A stretch of DNA of 64,000 nucleotides from Aestuariimicrobium kwangyangense DSM 21549 (GTDB taxonomy: Bacteria > Actinomycetota > Actinomycetes > Propionibacteriales > Propionibacteriaceae). The position numbers and the translations under genes are program-made. Below are positions 2,431-8,807 of the stretch, one piece after another (the stretch's first letter is position 1; each line of letters opens with the position of its first letter). The stretch lies in assembly GCF_000421525.1 (NCBI RefSeq), contig NZ_ATXE01000001.1:186001-250000 (forward strand), written 5' to 3'. The notes beneath the pieces are model-generated. The model saw only the letters and a program-made list of their open reading frames with translations. It was not told where the DNA came from and did no database searches.

Positions 2431-2505
2431 GAGGTCATTCTCCCGGTTCCACCCGCCACGGGGTGATTCAGCGCCGCCGGGACGGTCGAACTAGACTTGC
2501 CCCTC

Positions 2506-4026
2506 GTGTCCCTCGCTCCCGCCCAGCAAGCCGCCATCGACGACCTGATCTCGTCCACACCGGTGATCAGGCGGCTGGGTGACCTGTTCGCCGCCGCGGG
2601 CCACGAGCTGTACCTGGTCGGGGGTTCGGTGCGCGACGTGCTGCTCGGGCACCTGGTCAACGACCTCGACTTCACCACCTCGGCGCGCCCCGGGCAGACC
2701 GAGAAGCTGCTCAAGCAGGTGGCCGACCACGTGTGGGACGTCGGACGCGAGTTCGGCACCATCACCGCCAGGGTCAGCGACCCGGCGGCCCCCGCCACCG
2801 CAGATCCTGCCGACCAGCCCCACGAGGCCGAGGCCGGTGCGGACCGACACTGGCTCATCGAGGTGACCACCTTCCGAGCCGACGCCTATCGCTCGGACTC
2901 GCGCAAACCGGAGGTCAACTTCGGCGACTCGATCGACGACGACCTGGTCAGGCGCGATTTCACGGTCAATGCCATGGCCATCGAGGTCTCGGACGACCAC
3001 CCCACCTTCGTCGACCCGCACGGGGGACTGGCAGACCTGGCGGCGCGCCGCCTGATGACGCCGTTCGCCCCCGAGCGGTCGTTCTCGGACGACCCGCTGC
3101 GCATGATGCGCGCCGCGCGGTTCGCCAGCCAGCTGGACTTCCAGCCAGCAGGTCCGGTGATCGCGGCCATGACCAGCATGGCCGACCGCATCGAGATCAT
3201 CTCGGCCGAACGTGTGCGGGACGAACTGTCTCGGCTGCTGCTCACCGCCCAGCCCGCCCGCGGTCTCGACCTGCTCTGCACCACGGGCATCGCCGACCAC
3301 GTGCTGCCGGAGCTGCCGGCGCTGCGTCTGGAGGTGGACGAGCACCACCGCCACAAGGACGTCTACCAGCACTCCCTGATCGTGCTGCAACAGGCCATCG
3401 AGCTCGAGCAGGCCCGCGGCCACCGTCCCGACCTGGTCAACCGCCTGGCGGCCCTGCTGCACGACGTGGGCAAGCCGTCCACCCGGCGGTTCGAGGACGA
3501 CGGCCGCGTCTCGTTCCACCACCATGACGTGGTCGGGGCGAAGCTGGTCCGCAAGCGGCTGAAGGCGCTGCGATTCTCGTCCGAGGAGGTCAAGGCGGTC
3601 TCCAAACTGGTGGAGTTGCACCTGCGCTTCCACGGTTACTCCGATGGCCTGACCGGCGAGAACGCCGGCTGGACCGACTCCGCGGTCCGGCGCTACGTGC
3701 GCGATGCCGGCGACCAGCTCGAACACCTGCACATCCTCACCCGGGCCGACTGCACCACCCGGAACCAGCGCAAGGCGACCCGGTTGCGCCGTGCGTACGA
3801 CGACCTTGAGGCCCGCATCGACGACCTGTTCGCCCGCGAGGAGCTGAATGCGATGCGCCCCGACCTTGACGGCACCCAGATCATGGCGTTGCTCGACCTC
3901 GCTCCGGGCCCACAGGTCGGGCGGGCCTACCAGCACCTGCTCGACCTGCGGATCGAGAACGGTCCCCTCGGCGAGGAGCGCGCGACCGAGGAACTGCGCC
4001 GCTGGTGGGAGCAGCAGGAATCCTGA
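2506..4026 (+). CDS. cca: CCA tRNA nucleotidyltransferase
   Basis: This 506-residue enzyme adds or repairs the 3'-CCA end of tRNAs. The head motif LYLVGGSVRDVLLGH and the catalytic NDLDFTT (D-x-D) are near residues 40-60. The motif VRRDFTVNAMAIE follows, and a C-terminal HD-type domain carries AALLHDVGKPSTR. The TTG at 2497 is also in frame, but the GTG at 2506 is preferred: a perfect -10 hexamer TAGACT (2492-2497) overlaps that TTG and would place the transcript start at the GTG, giving a leaderless mRNA. In mycobacteria the homologue likewise opens the conserved origin-proximal block that continues with DUF6049 and sigM, as here. Confidence 0.94.
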   Translation: MSLAPAQQAAIDDLISSTPVIRRLGDLFAAAGHELYLVGGSVRDVLLGHLVNDLDFTTSARPGQTEKLLKQVADHVWDVGREFGTITARVSDPAAPATADPADQPHEAEAGADRHWLIEVTTFRADAYRSDSRKPEVNFGDSIDDDLVRRDFTVNAMAIEVSDDHPTFVDPHGGLADLAARRLMTPFAPERSFSDDPLRMMRAARFASQLDFQPAGPVIAAMTSMADRIEIISAERVRDELSRLLLTAQPARGLDLLCTTGIADHVLPELPALRLEVDEHHRHKDVYQHSLIVLQQAIELEQARGHRPDLVNRLAALLHDVGKPSTRRFEDDGRVSFHHHDVVGAKLVRKRLKALRFSSEEVKAVSKLVELHLRFHGYSDGLTGENAGWTDSAVRRYVRDAGDQLEHLHILTRADCTTRNQRKATRLRRAYDDLEARIDDLFAREELNAMRPDLDGTQIMALLDLAPGPQVGRAYQHLLDLRIENGPLGEERATEELRRWWEQQES

Positions 4027-4052
4027 CCGACCGCGGCAACTACGATGAGCGG

Positions 4053-6131
4053 GTGACCCGCCCCTCCAGCGCCGACGGCAGTGCCCGACGCTGGGTGAGC
4101 GCTGCTGTGGGGCTGCTGCTGGTGGTCCTCGCCACCCTCGCAGGCGCCCCGCCGGCCCATGCGGACGACCCGATCGAGGTGGCCATCACGTTGACCTCGG
4201 TCTCCCCGCAGGTGGTGCCGAAGGATCCTGCGGCCCGGATCACGATCTCCGGCGAGGTCGTGAACACCTCCAAGGTCGCGATGAAGGGGGTGCAGGTCTC
4301 GTTCTGGCGCTCCCGCGACCCCATCTCCACCACCGCGGAACTGCAGCAGGCCGCCGCCAGCCCCTGGGACGTCCCCTTCGGTGAGCGGATGGGCGTCGAC
4401 GGCACCGAACCCGACCTCAACCTGTTCAACATCACCACCGAGAACGAGCCGAGCTTCGGCCCCGGCGCGAAGGCGACCTTCACCGTCAGCGCCCGGGTCG
4501 ACCAACTCGACCTGGGATCAGTGAGCGCGGACGATCCCAGCGGTGGCGTGCGCCTGGTGGGGGTCCACGTGCGCGGTACGCCCGCCGGAGGCACCAACCA
4601 CACCGTGGGCAGGGCGCGCGTCTTCATGCCCATGTCGGCGCCCACCTCCGTCGACCGCGCGTCCATCGTGGTGTTGACCTCGGCCCCGTCGATGTTGCCC
4701 GACGGGACCTTCACCGACACCCACCTCGCCGGCGAACTGGGCGGCCGGTTGGGTCGACTGTTGGCCGAGGCGGCGCAACCGGGCGCCACCGTGCTGATCG
4801 ACCCCTCGCTGTACGACGAGTTGACGGCGATGACCTCGGAGGGCGGTTACCGCCTCTCCAGTGGGCAGGTGACCACCGAGGGGGCACAACAGGCCAGTGA
4901 CTTCCTGCTCGGGTTCGGGGCGTTGCAGTCGGTCAACACGGTCTACCGCCTGCCCTTCGGCAATCCCGACCTCGCCCTCGCGCACCAGTTCGACCAACCC
5001 GAGGTGGTCAGCCGGGCGGCGGCAGCCCTGCCCGCGAACCATCCCCTCAGTGGGTTGCCGGTCGCCGTCGTCCCTGACCGCAGCGTCGACTCGTCCATCG
5101 TGTCGTTCATCGCGCCCCTGCATCCCACGTTGCTGGTGCTCCGGAACAATCCGGGGCCGGAACGCCAGCAGGTGGGCGACCTGATGGTGGTGCGCACCGA
5201 CACCCGGCTGGGGTTGGGCGGACCCGGGCCAGCGCCCAGCTCCACCGATCCGCAGCGGGTGGGCCGGGCCCTGAGTGAGCTGCTGCTCGATCCCTCACCC
5301 CAGATCGTCACCCTCTCCGACCAGGTACTGCCCGCCGTCGATCGCGCCATTCGTCCGCTCTCGACGCTGGTACCCCTGACTGCCCTGGAGGAGAGCTCCG
5401 GTCGGGTCGTGTGGCCGAAGGCGGTCAAGGGCAATGTCGTCTCCGCCGACTGGTGGGCGCAGCTCGACACCACCGCACAACGGCTCACCGACGCCGGCGA
5501 CCTGCGTGGTGATCTGGCCACGGGCAAGCGGCAGGCAGCGGCCGCCACCTCGCGAGCGGCCGCCTCCAGGTTCACCGCCGAGTCACGGGTGGCCTACCTC
5601 AGCGCCGTGCGCGGACTCATTCCCAGCATCGACAGCCAGAACGTGCGCATCGTCAGCGCCGAGAAGTTCGTCGTCTCCGAGGCCACCACCCGGTTGCCGA
5701 TCACGGTCACCAACAACACCGACCAGCCGGTGGCGGTGCGCGTGGTCTTCATCTCCGAGAACCCACAGCGCATCTCGCTGCCTCCCACCGACGTGGTGAC
5801 GGTTCCTCCCCACGGTTCGCACGCCTTCACCTTCACCGTCGAGGCCCACACCAACGGCGCCCTCACGGTCCGCGCGCGGCTCGAGACCTCGACCGGGGTG
5901 CCGGTGGGCGTCGAGCACCGATTCATCCTGACCGCCAACTCCCTGGGCCGGATCGGCTGGATCCTGATGGTCAGCTCGGGACTGGTGGTGTTGGCCGCGA
6001 CCGCGCTGCGCATCCGTCAGGTGCGTGGCGAGCGCGGACGAGCCTCCCTCCCCGCAGTGGCCGGCGCACCGTCGGTGAGCGGCGAGGGGTTCGTGACCCC
6101 TCCTGACCTGGGAACACGCCCGCACCCGTGA
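4053..6131 (+). CDS. DUF6049 family secreted, membrane-anchored protein
   Basis: A 692-residue protein. Residues 1-35 form a signal peptide (basic start, hydrophobic VGLLLVVLATLAGAPP, cleavage after AHA). A long extracellular region with immunoglobulin-like beta segments follows, then a C-terminal membrane helix IGWILMVSSGLVVLAATAL and a short basic tail. Length, topology and position match the DUF6049 family found next to murJ/mviN in actinobacteria (Rv3909-like in Mycobacterium). The function is unknown; a cell-envelope role is inferred from its usual partner MurJ. The start is GTG at 4053, with TACGAT (4041-4046) 6 nt upstream and no ribosome site. Only 64 bp separate it from the pseudokinase gene, where murJ would be expected. 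Confidence 0.85.
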   Translation: MTRPSSADGSARRWVSAAVGLLLVVLATLAGAPPAHADDPIEVAITLTSVSPQVVPKDPAARITISGEVVNTSKVAMKGVQVSFWRSRDPISTTAELQQAAASPWDVPFGERMGVDGTEPDLNLFNITTENEPSFGPGAKATFTVSARVDQLDLGSVSADDPSGGVRLVGVHVRGTPAGGTNHTVGRARVFMPMSAPTSVDRASIVVLTSAPSMLPDGTFTDTHLAGELGGRLGRLLAEAAQPGATVLIDPSLYDELTAMTSEGGYRLSSGQVTTEGAQQASDFLLGFGALQSVNTVYRLPFGNPDLALAHQFDQPEVVSRAAAALPANHPLSGLPVAVVPDRSVDSSIVSFIAPLHPTLLVLRNNPGPERQQVGDLMVVRTDTRLGLGGPGPAPSSTDPQRVGRALSELLLDPSPQIVTLSDQVLPAVDRAIRPLSTLVPLTALEESSGRVVWPKAVKGNVVSADWWAQLDTTAQRLTDAGDLRGDLATGKRQAAAATSRAAASRFTAESRVAYLSAVRGLIPSIDSQNVRIVSAEKFVVSEATTRLPITVTNNTDQPVAVRVVFISENPQRISLPPTDVVTVPPHGSHAFTFTVEAHTNGALTVRARLETSTGVPVGVEHRFILTANSLGRIGWILMVSSGLVVLAATALRIRQVRGERGRASLPAVAGAPSVSGEGFVTPPDLGTRPHP

Positions 6132-6195
6132 CCACCCAAACAGACCGCCGTCCAGCCATACTGGGGACGACCACTGGCAACCCGAGGACGCACCC

Positions 6196-8226
6196 ATGAC
6201 CCCACCTGACAACGCCCCCGGGCGGAGCGGGGACGGCTCCGGTGACTCCTGGGTGAGTGGGGACCGCAGCGACCAGCAGGGCTACGTGCCACCGCAGTGG
6301 GACTCATGGTCCGACCCGCCCGAGGCCTTCCCCGAGTTCACCCATCGCCCGCCCCGGGAGGGGCGCGCGCCCGATGGGGGCACGGTTCCCCCGCAGCCGG
6401 AGTCGTCGGACGATGAGGCGACCGAGGTCTTCCATGCCTTTCCCTCCCACTCTGGTCAGGGGCATCCGGGCCAGTCGCGTCCGGGCCAGGACGCGAGCGT
6501 GTTCAGCGGCACTGCGGCCACCACCGGGTCACTCGCGCAGCCTGACCCCTCGGACGAACCCACCGATCATGACCTGCCCGTGGGACTGCCCAGCGTGCGC
6601 GTGAACCAGGTGATCGCCGACCGGTACCGGCTCGAGGAGGAGCTGACCCAGCGCCACCAGACCCTGACTTGGCGCGCCTTCGACACGAAACTGTCCCGGG
6701 CGGTGCTGGTGCACGCCATCGCGGCCACCGATCCGCGCCGCCATGCCGTGCTCGAGGCGGCCCGCCGGTCGGCGATCGCCACTGATTCGCGGTTCCTGCG
6801 CGTGCTCGACGCCGTCTCGGACGATGCCCAGGACGGCACCTACATCATCTGCGAGTACGTGCCGGGGGAATCCCTCGAACGGCTGCTGGCTCAGGGACCA
6901 CTGAGCGTGCTGGAGGCCGCGTGGGTCGTCCGCGAACTCGCCGATGCCCTGACCCCCATGCACGCGGCCGGTCTGTTCCACGGCATGCTCACCCCCGACA
7001 CCGTGCTGGTCACGGCAACCGGCAGCGTCAAGATCGTCGGATTCCTGATCGATGCTGCCCTCGCCCCGGACGGCCATCCGACCGCCGCATGGTCGGACCG
7101 CGAGGAGGCCGATGTCAGGGCTCTGGGGCAGCTGCTGTACGCCTGCCTCGTGACCCGCTGGCCCACCATGGACGAGTCCGACCGCACGTGGTGGGGCCTG
7201 CGCGCGGCCCCCTTCGATGCGAAGGGATGGCTCACCCCCCGACAGGTGCGCGCCGGCGTCTCGCCGGCCCTCGACCAGGTCTGCGACCAGATCCTGCACG
7301 AGCGACCCAGGCTCGGCGGCGCTCCGCTGCGTTCCGCGGCCCAGGTCGACCAGGCACTCTCCCGGGTTCTCGGAACCGCGGAGGCCTCCGCCGACCTGGA
7401 GCACCGGGTACGCCACCCGCAGGCGCGCTCCGGCATCGATGACACCCTCAGCGACCTCACCGGCACCGGGCGGGTGCCGGTCGCCGCGGTCGGGGCCGCA
7501 CCGACCCCGAGGTCCGCGGACACGCCCGACGAGTTGGAGGCCGGTCCGTCCACGCGTCTGCTCCCCGCCCATGACGGCGTCCACGGGCCGGACCACCCAC
7601 GGACTCGTCCGTCGACCTCGCGTCCATGGCTGCGAGTACTGCTGGTGCTGGTGCTGGTCAGCGTCGTCGTGGGACTGGTCGCCGTCGCGCTCCACCGGAC
7701 GGGCAAGCCGGGTGCAGGGCCGGTCACCACGCCTTCGCCCTCGGCCGCCAGGACACTGCCGATCTCCAAGGTGGACGACTTCGACCCGACCGCCGACGGC
7801 GGCAACGACGAGGAGAACCCCAACCAGGTGGCGCTGGCCTGGGACGGCAAGCCGACGACTGCGTGGACCACCCTCACCTATCGCGGGAACCCGAAGCTGG
7901 GCGGGCTCAAGCCCGGGGTCGGTCTCGTGGTCGACCTGGGACAGTCGGTCACCGTCGGCAGCGTCCGGGTCACCCTGCAGGGCAGCCCCACGGCCATCGC
8001 CGTCATGGTGCCGCAGGGCAATGCGGCCTCGGTCACCGAACCCGACATGTCGAGCGTGAAGAAGTGGCGGCAGGTGGCCGTCAACGGTGAGGCGGGAACC
8101 TCGGTGACGCTGAGCCCCAGCAAGCCGGTGACCACCCGCTTCGTGCTCGTCTACCTGACCTCCCTGCCCAAGGTGGACGCCGGGCGCTACCGGGCAGGCA
8201 TCTCGGAACTCCAGGTGACCACGTGA
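6196..8226 (+). CDS. Pseudokinase with one membrane helix and an extracellular discoidin-like domain (MviN C-terminal half)
   Basis: 676 residues. The order is a Pro/Gly/Asp-rich disordered N-terminus (1-135), a kinase-like domain (about 138-400), a linker, one membrane helix (LRVLLVLVLVSVVVGLVAVAL, about 478-497) and an outer beta domain with AWDGKPTTAWTT and GLVVDLGQ, resembling F5/8-type domains. The kinase fold is degenerate: the VAIK lysine is absent, the HRD loop reads FHGMLTPDTVLV and the DFG site reads IVGFLID, so it is a pseudokinase. In mycobacteria this whole arrangement is the C-terminal half of MviN, fused to the MurJ flippase and bound by an FHA protein. Here the flippase half is missing. 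Start ATG with GAGGA 7 nt upstream. Its stop overlaps the sigM start by 4 bp. Confidence 0.85.
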   Translation: MTPPDNAPGRSGDGSGDSWVSGDRSDQQGYVPPQWDSWSDPPEAFPEFTHRPPREGRAPDGGTVPPQPESSDDEATEVFHAFPSHSGQGHPGQSRPGQDASVFSGTAATTGSLAQPDPSDEPTDHDLPVGLPSVRVNQVIADRYRLEEELTQRHQTLTWRAFDTKLSRAVLVHAIAATDPRRHAVLEAARRSAIATDSRFLRVLDAVSDDAQDGTYIICEYVPGESLERLLAQGPLSVLEAAWVVRELADALTPMHAAGLFHGMLTPDTVLVTATGSVKIVGFLIDAALAPDGHPTAAWSDREEADVRALGQLLYACLVTRWPTMDESDRTWWGLRAAPFDAKGWLTPRQVRAGVSPALDQVCDQILHERPRLGGAPLRSAAQVDQALSRVLGTAEASADLEHRVRHPQARSGIDDTLSDLTGTGRVPVAAVGAAPTPRSADTPDELEAGPSTRLLPAHDGVHGPDHPRTRPSTSRPWLRVLLVLVLVSVVVGLVAVALHRTGKPGAGPVTTPSPSAARTLPISKVDDFDPTADGGNDEENPNQVALAWDGKPTTAWTTLTYRGNPKLGGLKPGVGLVVDLGQSVTVGSVRVTLQGSPTAIAVMVPQGNAASVTEPDMSSVKKWRQVAVNGEAGTSVTLSPSKPVTTRFVLVYLTSLPKVDAGRYRAGISELQVTT

Positions 8227-8807
8227 CCTCGCTGCTGCACGAACTGGCCGATGTCACCGACGCCGACCTGTTGGCCCGACACGTCGCAGGTGACGAGCAG
8301 GCCTTCGAGGTGCTGTTCACCCGACACCGTGATCGCCTCTGGGCGGTCGCGCTACGCACCATGCGCAACCCGGACGAGGCCGCCGACGCCCTGCAAGAGG
8401 CGATGATCTCGGCCTTCCGACGAGCCGACTCGTTCCGCGGACAGGCTGCGGTCACGACCTGGCTGCACCGGATCGTGGTGAATGCCTGCCTCGACCGCAT
8501 GCGCCGCAACAAGGTGCGCGCCACCCAACCGATGCCGGACAATCCCGACCACGATCCCACCCTGGCCGTGGCCGGCGACCTGCAGGAAGAGTTCAGTGAC
8601 AAGGAGACCGCGGCCGACGTGGCCCGAGCCCTGGCGTCGATCAATGCCGACCAACGGGCGGCGCTGGTCCTGGTCGACATGCAGGGCTACTCGGTGGACG
8701 AGGCAGCCGCCCTGCTCGGCTGCGCGCCCGGCACCGTCAAGAGTCGTTGTTCGAGGGGACGAGCCAGACTGGCTCCCCTGTTGGCGCACCTGCGCGAGGA
8801 TGGCTGA
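8223..8807 (+). CDS. sigM: ECF RNA polymerase sigma factor SigM
   Basis: A 194-residue extracytoplasmic-function sigma factor. Region 2 is clear (DLLARHVAGDEQAFEVLF, then NPDEAADALQEAMISAFRR for -10 recognition), and region 4 has the helix-turn-helix YSVDEAAALLGCAPGTVKSR that reads the -35 element. It starts with GTG in the 4-bp GTGA overlap with the pseudokinase stop, so translation is probably coupled. The SigM identity rests on synteny (cca - DUF6049 - pseudokinase - sigM - trxB) as well as on sequence. In mycobacteria SigM controls envelope-related genes and is held by the membrane anti-sigma factor RsmA, which I do not find downstream. Confidence 0.9.
   Translation: MTSLLHELADVTDADLLARHVAGDEQAFEVLFTRHRDRLWAVALRTMRNPDEAADALQEAMISAFRRADSFRGQAAVTTWLHRIVVNACLDRMRRNKVRATQPMPDNPDHDPTLAVAGDLQEEFSDKETAADVARALASINADQRAALVLVDMQGYSVDEAAALLGCAPGTVKSRCSRGRARLAPLLAHLREDG

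Follow-up and report, generated by a model that had tools for sequence, protein, structure and literature searches.

A free-standing MviN-type pseudokinase and a distant, foreign-type MurJ in Aestuariimicrobium kwangyangense and related Propionibacteriaceae

In mycobacteria the gene for a DUF6049 protein lies next to mviN. One essential protein carries both the flippase and the MviN pseudokinase, and their roles have therefore been difficult to tell apart. According to PMC10166564 and PMC6180346, the mycobacterial MviN pseudokinase is phosphorylated by PknB and bound by FhaA, the pseudokinase is described as dispensable, and the linker preceding it binds CwlM; the cytoplasmic part of the Corynebacterium diphtheriae protein appears to be essential, and the adjoining locus tags dip2370 and DIP2371 suggest that a DUF6049 gene is next to mviN in that species. 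The literature covered, including passages of PMC10166564, PMC6180346, PMC12445094 and PMC10797013 but few subscription papers, contains no report of a MurJ that has moved or been replaced in the Propionibacteriaceae.

The window is the whole 64,000-nucleotide stretch of the A. kwangyangense DSM 21549 genome analyzed here (G000:C1:186001-250000). The locus near its left end contains the following features.

2497..4026, +, CCA tRNA nucleotidyltransferase, the upstream anchor of the conserved locus (open reading frame; Pfam PolyA_pol 1.1e-30, PolyA_pol_RNAbd, HD)
4005..6131, +, DUF6049 gene; 4005 is the first start codon of the frame and the true start may be later (open reading frame; PF19516, E 2.5e-20)
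6132..6195, no strand, 64-bp junction, the site of murJ in relatives (open reading frame ends; loci of relatives)
6196..8226, +, free-standing MviN-type pseudokinase, 676 aa, predicted (open reading frame, Pfam, phmmer, structure model, Foldseek)
6598..7419, +, its kinase-fold domain, residues 135-408, lacking the catalytic HRD, DFG and VAIK residues (alignment, phmmer, model, Foldseek, VIA-align)
6196..6597, +, its low-confidence N-terminal tail, residues 1-134 (pLDDT <50 for residues 7-127)
7420..7620, +, its juxtamembrane linker with Thr, residues 409-475 (low pLDDT; linker motif count)
7624..7692, +, its predicted single membrane helix, residues 477-499 (model helix; hydrophobic stretch in the open reading frame)
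7753..8223, +, its outer beta-rich domain, residues 520-676, with a weak F5/8 type C-like match (E 5e-4, below the Pfam cut-off; model)
8223..8807, +, SigM-like ECF sigma factor, with a 4-base overlap with the pseudokinase stop (open reading frame, Pfam)

The DUF6049 frame ends at 6131, and the start codon (ATG) of the pseudokinase follows at 6196. The preliminary description had reported 64 bp and no murJ between the DUF6049 gene and a free-standing pseudokinase, and the open reading frame ends and Pfam agree with it; PF03023 has zero matches inside the 64-kb window. The overlap of the SigM start with the pseudokinase stop (window coordinates 8223-8226, 4 bases) suggests translational coupling.

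Pfam yields only sub-threshold kinase matches for the 676-aa protein. In the alignment HGM replaces HRD, VGF replaces DFG, and the VAIK lysine is missing. Residues 142-344 match the solved Rv3910 pseudokinase (3otv/3oun/3uqc) in phmmer with E about 2e-7, although active PknA and PknB outscore the MviN pseudokinase, so that the match denotes relation and is not proof of orthology. The structure model (15 sequences, mean pLDDT 74, pTM 0.50) contains a kinase fold, a single helix at residues 477-499, and an outer beta domain with strands at 525-675. Foldseek with the kinase-fold model places the Rv3910/MviN pseudokinase (3uqc) at rank 1 by E-value with PknB next, whereas VIA-align ranks PknB first and Rv3910 is absent from its best 50 rows. 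With its degenerate kinase fold, relation to Rv3910, helix and outer domain, the window protein is predicted from the model to be an MviN-type pseudokinase. Like MviN/Rv3910 it has a non-catalytic kinase fold, a Thr-containing linker, one membrane helix and an outer domain, and FhaA is encoded in the genome (with FhaA_N and FHA domains); unlike MviN/Rv3910 it has no MurJ domain in itself or beside it, and the MurJ of the genome is of foreign type and 521 kb away. It also resembles, as a free-standing pseudokinase-like protein, the actinobacterial 'protein kinase family protein' downstream of mviN that is listed in the S6 Fig legend of PMC10166564, although mviN adjoins that protein and is gone from the window locus.

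The wider arrangement was determined by searching 149 Propionibacteriaceae genomes for PF03023 and PF19516 and by reading the gene order of 80 stretches from relatives. Among the matches listed (so that an unlisted gene is not necessarily absent), MurJ and DUF6049 lie within 3 kb of each other in 92 of the 149 genomes, 84 of these with a MurJ frame of >1000 aa, and are apart in 31; 18 genomes have no DUF6049 and 8 no MurJ. Separation is uniform in ten genera (g1, g4, g8, g13, g14, g17, g21, g26, g27 and g35), with the two genes apart in 28/28 genomes in which both are listed, either on one contig at distances of 45-2720 kb (14 genomes) or on different contigs (14 genomes). The other three of the 31 are G160 and two members of genus g22 (G173 and G175). 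The separation in G160 (L107, L108) is probably a contig break, its MurJ contig having a pseudokinase match with DUF6049 on another contig.

Genomes with a resident MurJ, that is, one at the ancestral CCA-DUF6049 locus, have the order CCA-DUF6049-MurJ-pseudokinase, often followed by SigM. The pseudokinase profile was detected at 20 resident family loci, and at 15 of them it lies inside the MurJ frame (L078:4386-8084 and 14 others), in a family outside the mycolata. As judged from gene order, CCA-DUF6049-MurJ-pseudokinase is the ancestral order of the family, and its last two members usually share a frame. The window protein resembles these fused proteins (e.g. the 1233-aa frame of L078) in belonging to the same pseudokinase clade (support 99), and differs from them in that they have a native-type MurJ in cis. 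The Propionibacteriaceae are not known to contain arabinogalactan. The one-frame arrangement in 15/20 resident loci runs counter to the statement in PMC10166564 that the MviN pseudokinase extension occurs only in arabinogalactan organisms.

The window belongs to a clade, scored here with 19 genomes, that contains its own genus together with members of Propionibacterium, Cutibacterium, Acidipropionibacterium and others (G132 is Propionibacterium australiense, G106 Cutibacterium namnetense and G108 Acidipropionibacterium timonense). DUF6049 and pseudokinase are side by side, with MurJ absent there, in 19/19 of these genomes. The second genome of the window's genus (G001) has the same junction, with 63 bases to the first start codon, and the A. 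timonense locus (L271) has the window's CCA-DUF6049-pseudokinase-SigM order. The kinase domain lies 110-707 bases beyond the DUF6049 stop in 18 of the 19 genomes, the window included, which is too short for a MurJ gene and excludes a MurJ remnant in those junctions; in G027 the distance is 3307 bases, and neither of its two PF03023 matches is on the contig with that gap. In the module tree (CCA, DUF6049 and pseudokinase; 49 rows, CCA missing in 17) the 19 genomes and two of genus g8 form one clade (support 98) inside resident lineages, consistent with a single loss of MurJ from the locus after the family arose, which is the simplest count. The preliminary description left open whether the locus had lost or never gained the flippase: loss fits, and 'never gained' does not, given that relatives around the clade keep MurJ at the junction, mostly fused.

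A MurJ is nevertheless encoded elsewhere. The 2.99-Mb genome (5 contigs) has a single PF03023 match (G000:C1:713357-714703; E about 1.1e-68 to 4.2e-68), 521 kb from the DUF6049 match, within a 579-aa gene (L002:9141-10880) that immediately follows lysC, the gene for aspartokinase. Its product matches six solved MurJs (7waw, 6cc4, 9ukv, 5t77, 9nu4 and 7wag; E 5e-15 to 2.4e-12) and, with only 58 residues following the Pfam MurJ match, has no pseudokinase; by the over-cut-off PF03023 match and the solved structures it is predicted to be the MurJ lipid II flippase. No substitute of the Amj type was found, PF10997 having no match in the genome while the B. subtilis control matched. The search for murJ or Amj proposed earlier thus ends with one MurJ behind lysC. 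This location is common to the clade: at 19/19 loci MurJ comes after lysC in the same orientation, with <=753 bases between the matches, and in contrast it adjoins lysC in 0/9 resident genomes in which lysC was located, lysC there being far from every listed MurJ. One PF03023 match over cut-off is present in 10 of the 11 window-clade genomes scored; G027 has a second, partial match of 29.6 bits.

The lysC-linked MurJ is of a type different from the residents. The window copy is 43-63% identical to 18 other lysC-linked copies and 29-40% to 21 resident family copies; its best 12 matches outside the family (393 genomes of the class) are 39-50% identical, residents of Phycicoccus, Tetrasphaera and Janibacter 42-46%, and those of family f31 of the class <=49%. 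A scan of named genomes (>=80 loci) reveals related MurJs in Phycicoccus, Nostocoides/Tetrasphaera, Terrabacter, Janibacter and Kineosporia among others, many at a CCA-MurJ-pseudokinase locus of their own. In the MurJ tree (98 rows) the native Propionibacteriales MurJs form one clade of 29 rows (support 100), comprising the 21 residents, three detached native copies and five of six rows from other families of the order. The lysC-linked copies fall instead in nested sets of 26, 29 and 40 rows (support 98, 97 and 97), with Intrasporangiaceae copies, an Ornithinimicrobium, family f31 and second copies of genus g12 as companions; stand-alone copies of Phycicoccus endophyticus and an Actinomycetales MAG fall among the lysC-linked ones. 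AU tests (36 rows, LG+G4, with groups named after the identities had been seen) reject a single Propionibacteriaceae MurJ clade (p 4.6e-83) and a clade of lysC-linked and resident copies (p 1.5e-79). One clade of lysC-linked copies is not rejected (p 0.606), so that they may be monophyletic.

The trees thus show the lysC-linked MurJ as foreign, of Micrococcales/Intrasporangiaceae type, arriving behind lysC in the ancestor of the window clade, with another actinobacterial family as the probable donor. The MurJ gene tree conflicts with the family and the native copy is gone, the pattern of xenologous displacement. By displacing the native flippase the foreign MurJ would have left the DUF6049 gene next to that of the pseudokinase.

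The pseudokinase did not come with it. In the pseudokinase tree (69 rows) 42 Propionibacteriaceae pseudokinases lie on one side of a branch (support 99), and a grouping of the window-clade pseudokinases with those of Micrococcales is rejected (p 4.7e-4). By these trees the window-clade pseudokinases are native to the family, and arrival of the foreign MurJ together with a pseudokinase partner is rejected. The pseudokinase profile is found in 47/49 module loci, with two truncated (G001, at a contig end, and G172). By the Nei-Gojobori method, with dS in some cases close to saturation and with no pseudokinase value from a fifth pair (g22, resident MurJ), four close window-clade pairs have dN/dS of 0.055, 0.116, 0.047 and 0.134 in the kinase-like domain, 0.153, 0.620, 0.077 and 0.137 in the outer domain, and 0.315, 0.372, 0.079 and 0.394 in DUF6049. 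By this measure the orphan pseudokinase is kept under purifying selection without sign of decay; that the module remains conserved, as the preliminary description stated, is borne out by the kinase-like domain (dN/dS 0.05-0.13) and by a pseudokinase at 19/19 clade loci. Relative to CCA, divergence in the clade (66 pairs) and among residents (55 pairs) is 2.03 and 1.84 respectively for the kinase-like domain, ~10% faster in the clade, 2.35 and 2.25 for the outer domain, and 3.29 and 3.02 for DUF6049, so that all three parts diverge a little faster in the clade and a slight relaxation may have occurred.

We consider it likely, taken as a whole, that a foreign MurJ settled behind lysC, that the native MurJ was lost, and that the pseudokinase persists as a membrane tether acting in trans. 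As the only MurJ of the genome, the foreign protein would have taken over lipid II flipping, and after this takeover the native flippase half could have been dispensed with. The remaining pseudokinase would retain its earlier topology, with the kinase-like domain and Thr linker inside, one membrane helix, and the outer domain outside. PknB may phosphorylate the linker and FhaA may then bind it, making the pseudokinase a phospho-switchable tether through which wall synthesis could be damped or localized, with putative action on MurJ and its neighbors in trans rather than in cis. FhaA_N is found in 143/149 family genomes. The linker motif [AP]T[EQ] occurs in 10/19 clade linkers compared with 3.4 in shuffled sequences, and in 7/23 resident linkers compared with 4.7; it is one of four patterns tried, was chosen post hoc, and the rows are not independent, so that the FHA-type motif is a lead only.

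Flippase and pseudokinase can be read as separable modules. The window clade constitutes a natural separation of native regulator and foreign flippase at different loci, and the pseudokinase should therefore be deletable or mutable in harmless members of the clade without touching MurJ. It shows, too, that the apparent sole lipid II flippase of a genome is open to replacement by that of another family.

A similar separation has occurred outside the Propionibacteriaceae. Six genomes contain a related stand-alone MurJ with neither CCA nor pseudokinase beside it: Phycicoccus endophyticus (L150), two Humibacillus, a Terrabacter, a Nostocoides and an Actinomycetales MAG (the other loci being L163, L153, L159, L155 and L152). 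As in the window clade, a pseudokinase lies near CCA without MurJ in 6/6 of these genomes, mostly Intrasporangiaceae (profile scores 172-279), and MurJ is elsewhere; unlike in the window clade, the MurJ site is not lysC in L150, L153 and L155. DUF6049 is beside the pseudokinase by Pfam in 3/3 genomes tested, those of Terrabacter, Nostocoides and the MAG; in P. endophyticus the space between CCA and pseudokinase is too small for a DUF6049 gene. Each genome has one PF03023 match >230 bits, the stand-alone copy. Four of the six have a second MurJ-like match of 116-146 bits at another locus, taken for another family (L266, L267, L268 and L269); its neighbors there are presumably recN, steA/steB and pyrG. 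By these gene orders, detachment of MurJ with survival of the pseudokinase is found in at least two families.

These loci bear on whether the DUF6049-pseudokinase module has a working link to MurJ at all, or has come to act elsewhere in wall synthesis or in division, a reading that we hold to be possible but would not favor. It draws on the retention of the pseudokinase without a cis MurJ at 19/19 clade loci and 6/6 stand-alone-MurJ loci, on purifying selection, and on the N-terminal domain of FhaA in 143/149 family genomes, FhaA acting through PbpA according to PMC10166564; it is weakened by the MurJ still present in the genomes searched, reachable in trans. The earlier suggestion that the role of the module is not only to control MurJ gains some weight from conservation without a cis MurJ in at least two families, and the same trans MurJ keeps it short of proof. 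Only tentatively, the pair might be a flippase-independent regulator of wall synthesis that has on several occasions persisted after losing its own flippase, with MurJ an exchangeable client, swappable between actinobacterial families and still governed, or ignored, by the old regulator.

The replacement by a foreign MurJ has to be weighed against an ancient duplication, by which two MurJ lineages in an actinobacterial ancestor were each kept by different Propionibacteriaceae genera without horizontal transfer. In favor of duplication, four genomes of genus g12 carry a resident MurJ-pseudokinase and a second, foreign-type MurJ (L077 with L095; L098; L099/L243; L100), and stand-alone copies of the foreign type are also present in Intrasporangiaceae. 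However, the lysC-linked copies nest in supported sets that hold Intrasporangiaceae residents, and 0/21 family residents are of that type. Moreover, a clade uniting the g12 copies with the lysC-linked ones is rejected (AU test, p 0.0038) and the two g12 copies that were read sit elsewhere, so that two imports fit better; with both copies present, the second g12 copy is probably a separate import. The MurJ tree was built without the second PF03023 matches of other families of the order, and duplication is thus only weakened; we judge it unlikely. In one g12 genome (G138) the second MurJ lies between two genes that we take to be rsmG and parA.

Simple relocation, in which a rearrangement carried the native murJ from the locus to lysC, is very improbable. 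Detached native-type MurJs do exist, near lysC in G008 and in G173 and G175 of g22, and relocation may be true of these few cases; for the window MurJ it is rejected by the AU test, the window copy and its lysC-linked kin being 29-40% identical to residents and their joint clade rejected at p 1.5e-79 or lower. Genus g8 (G008 and G032) falls inside the module clade, yet the G008 MurJ is native-type and ~45 kb from its DUF6049 gene, near lysC; either two MurJ copies coexisted for a time or, in the tree, a long branch is misplaced. In the reduced genome of G008 this MurJ (L052:5970-8361), close to lysC, overlaps the end of an upstream gene, presumably gatD.

An assembly error or very recent deletion in a single genome, to which a murJ adjoining the junction in close relatives would have pointed, can be dismissed with near certainty, since no supporting point was found and the short MurJ-less junction is common to the nearest relatives (G001, 16 of 17 further clade genomes with G027 and its 3.3-kb gap the exception, and A. 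timonense).

Two outgroup genomes depart from the family pattern in the opposite direction. In G034 and G052 (L109 and L094 between them) DUF6049 and MurJ are adjacent and the pseudokinase profile was not found at the locus; the pseudokinase can have been lost, or have diverged beyond the profile, while MurJ stays, and the module is therefore not kept everywhere. At the A. timonense locus, a nearby gene resembles, by eye, the glycerol kinase gene of the window.
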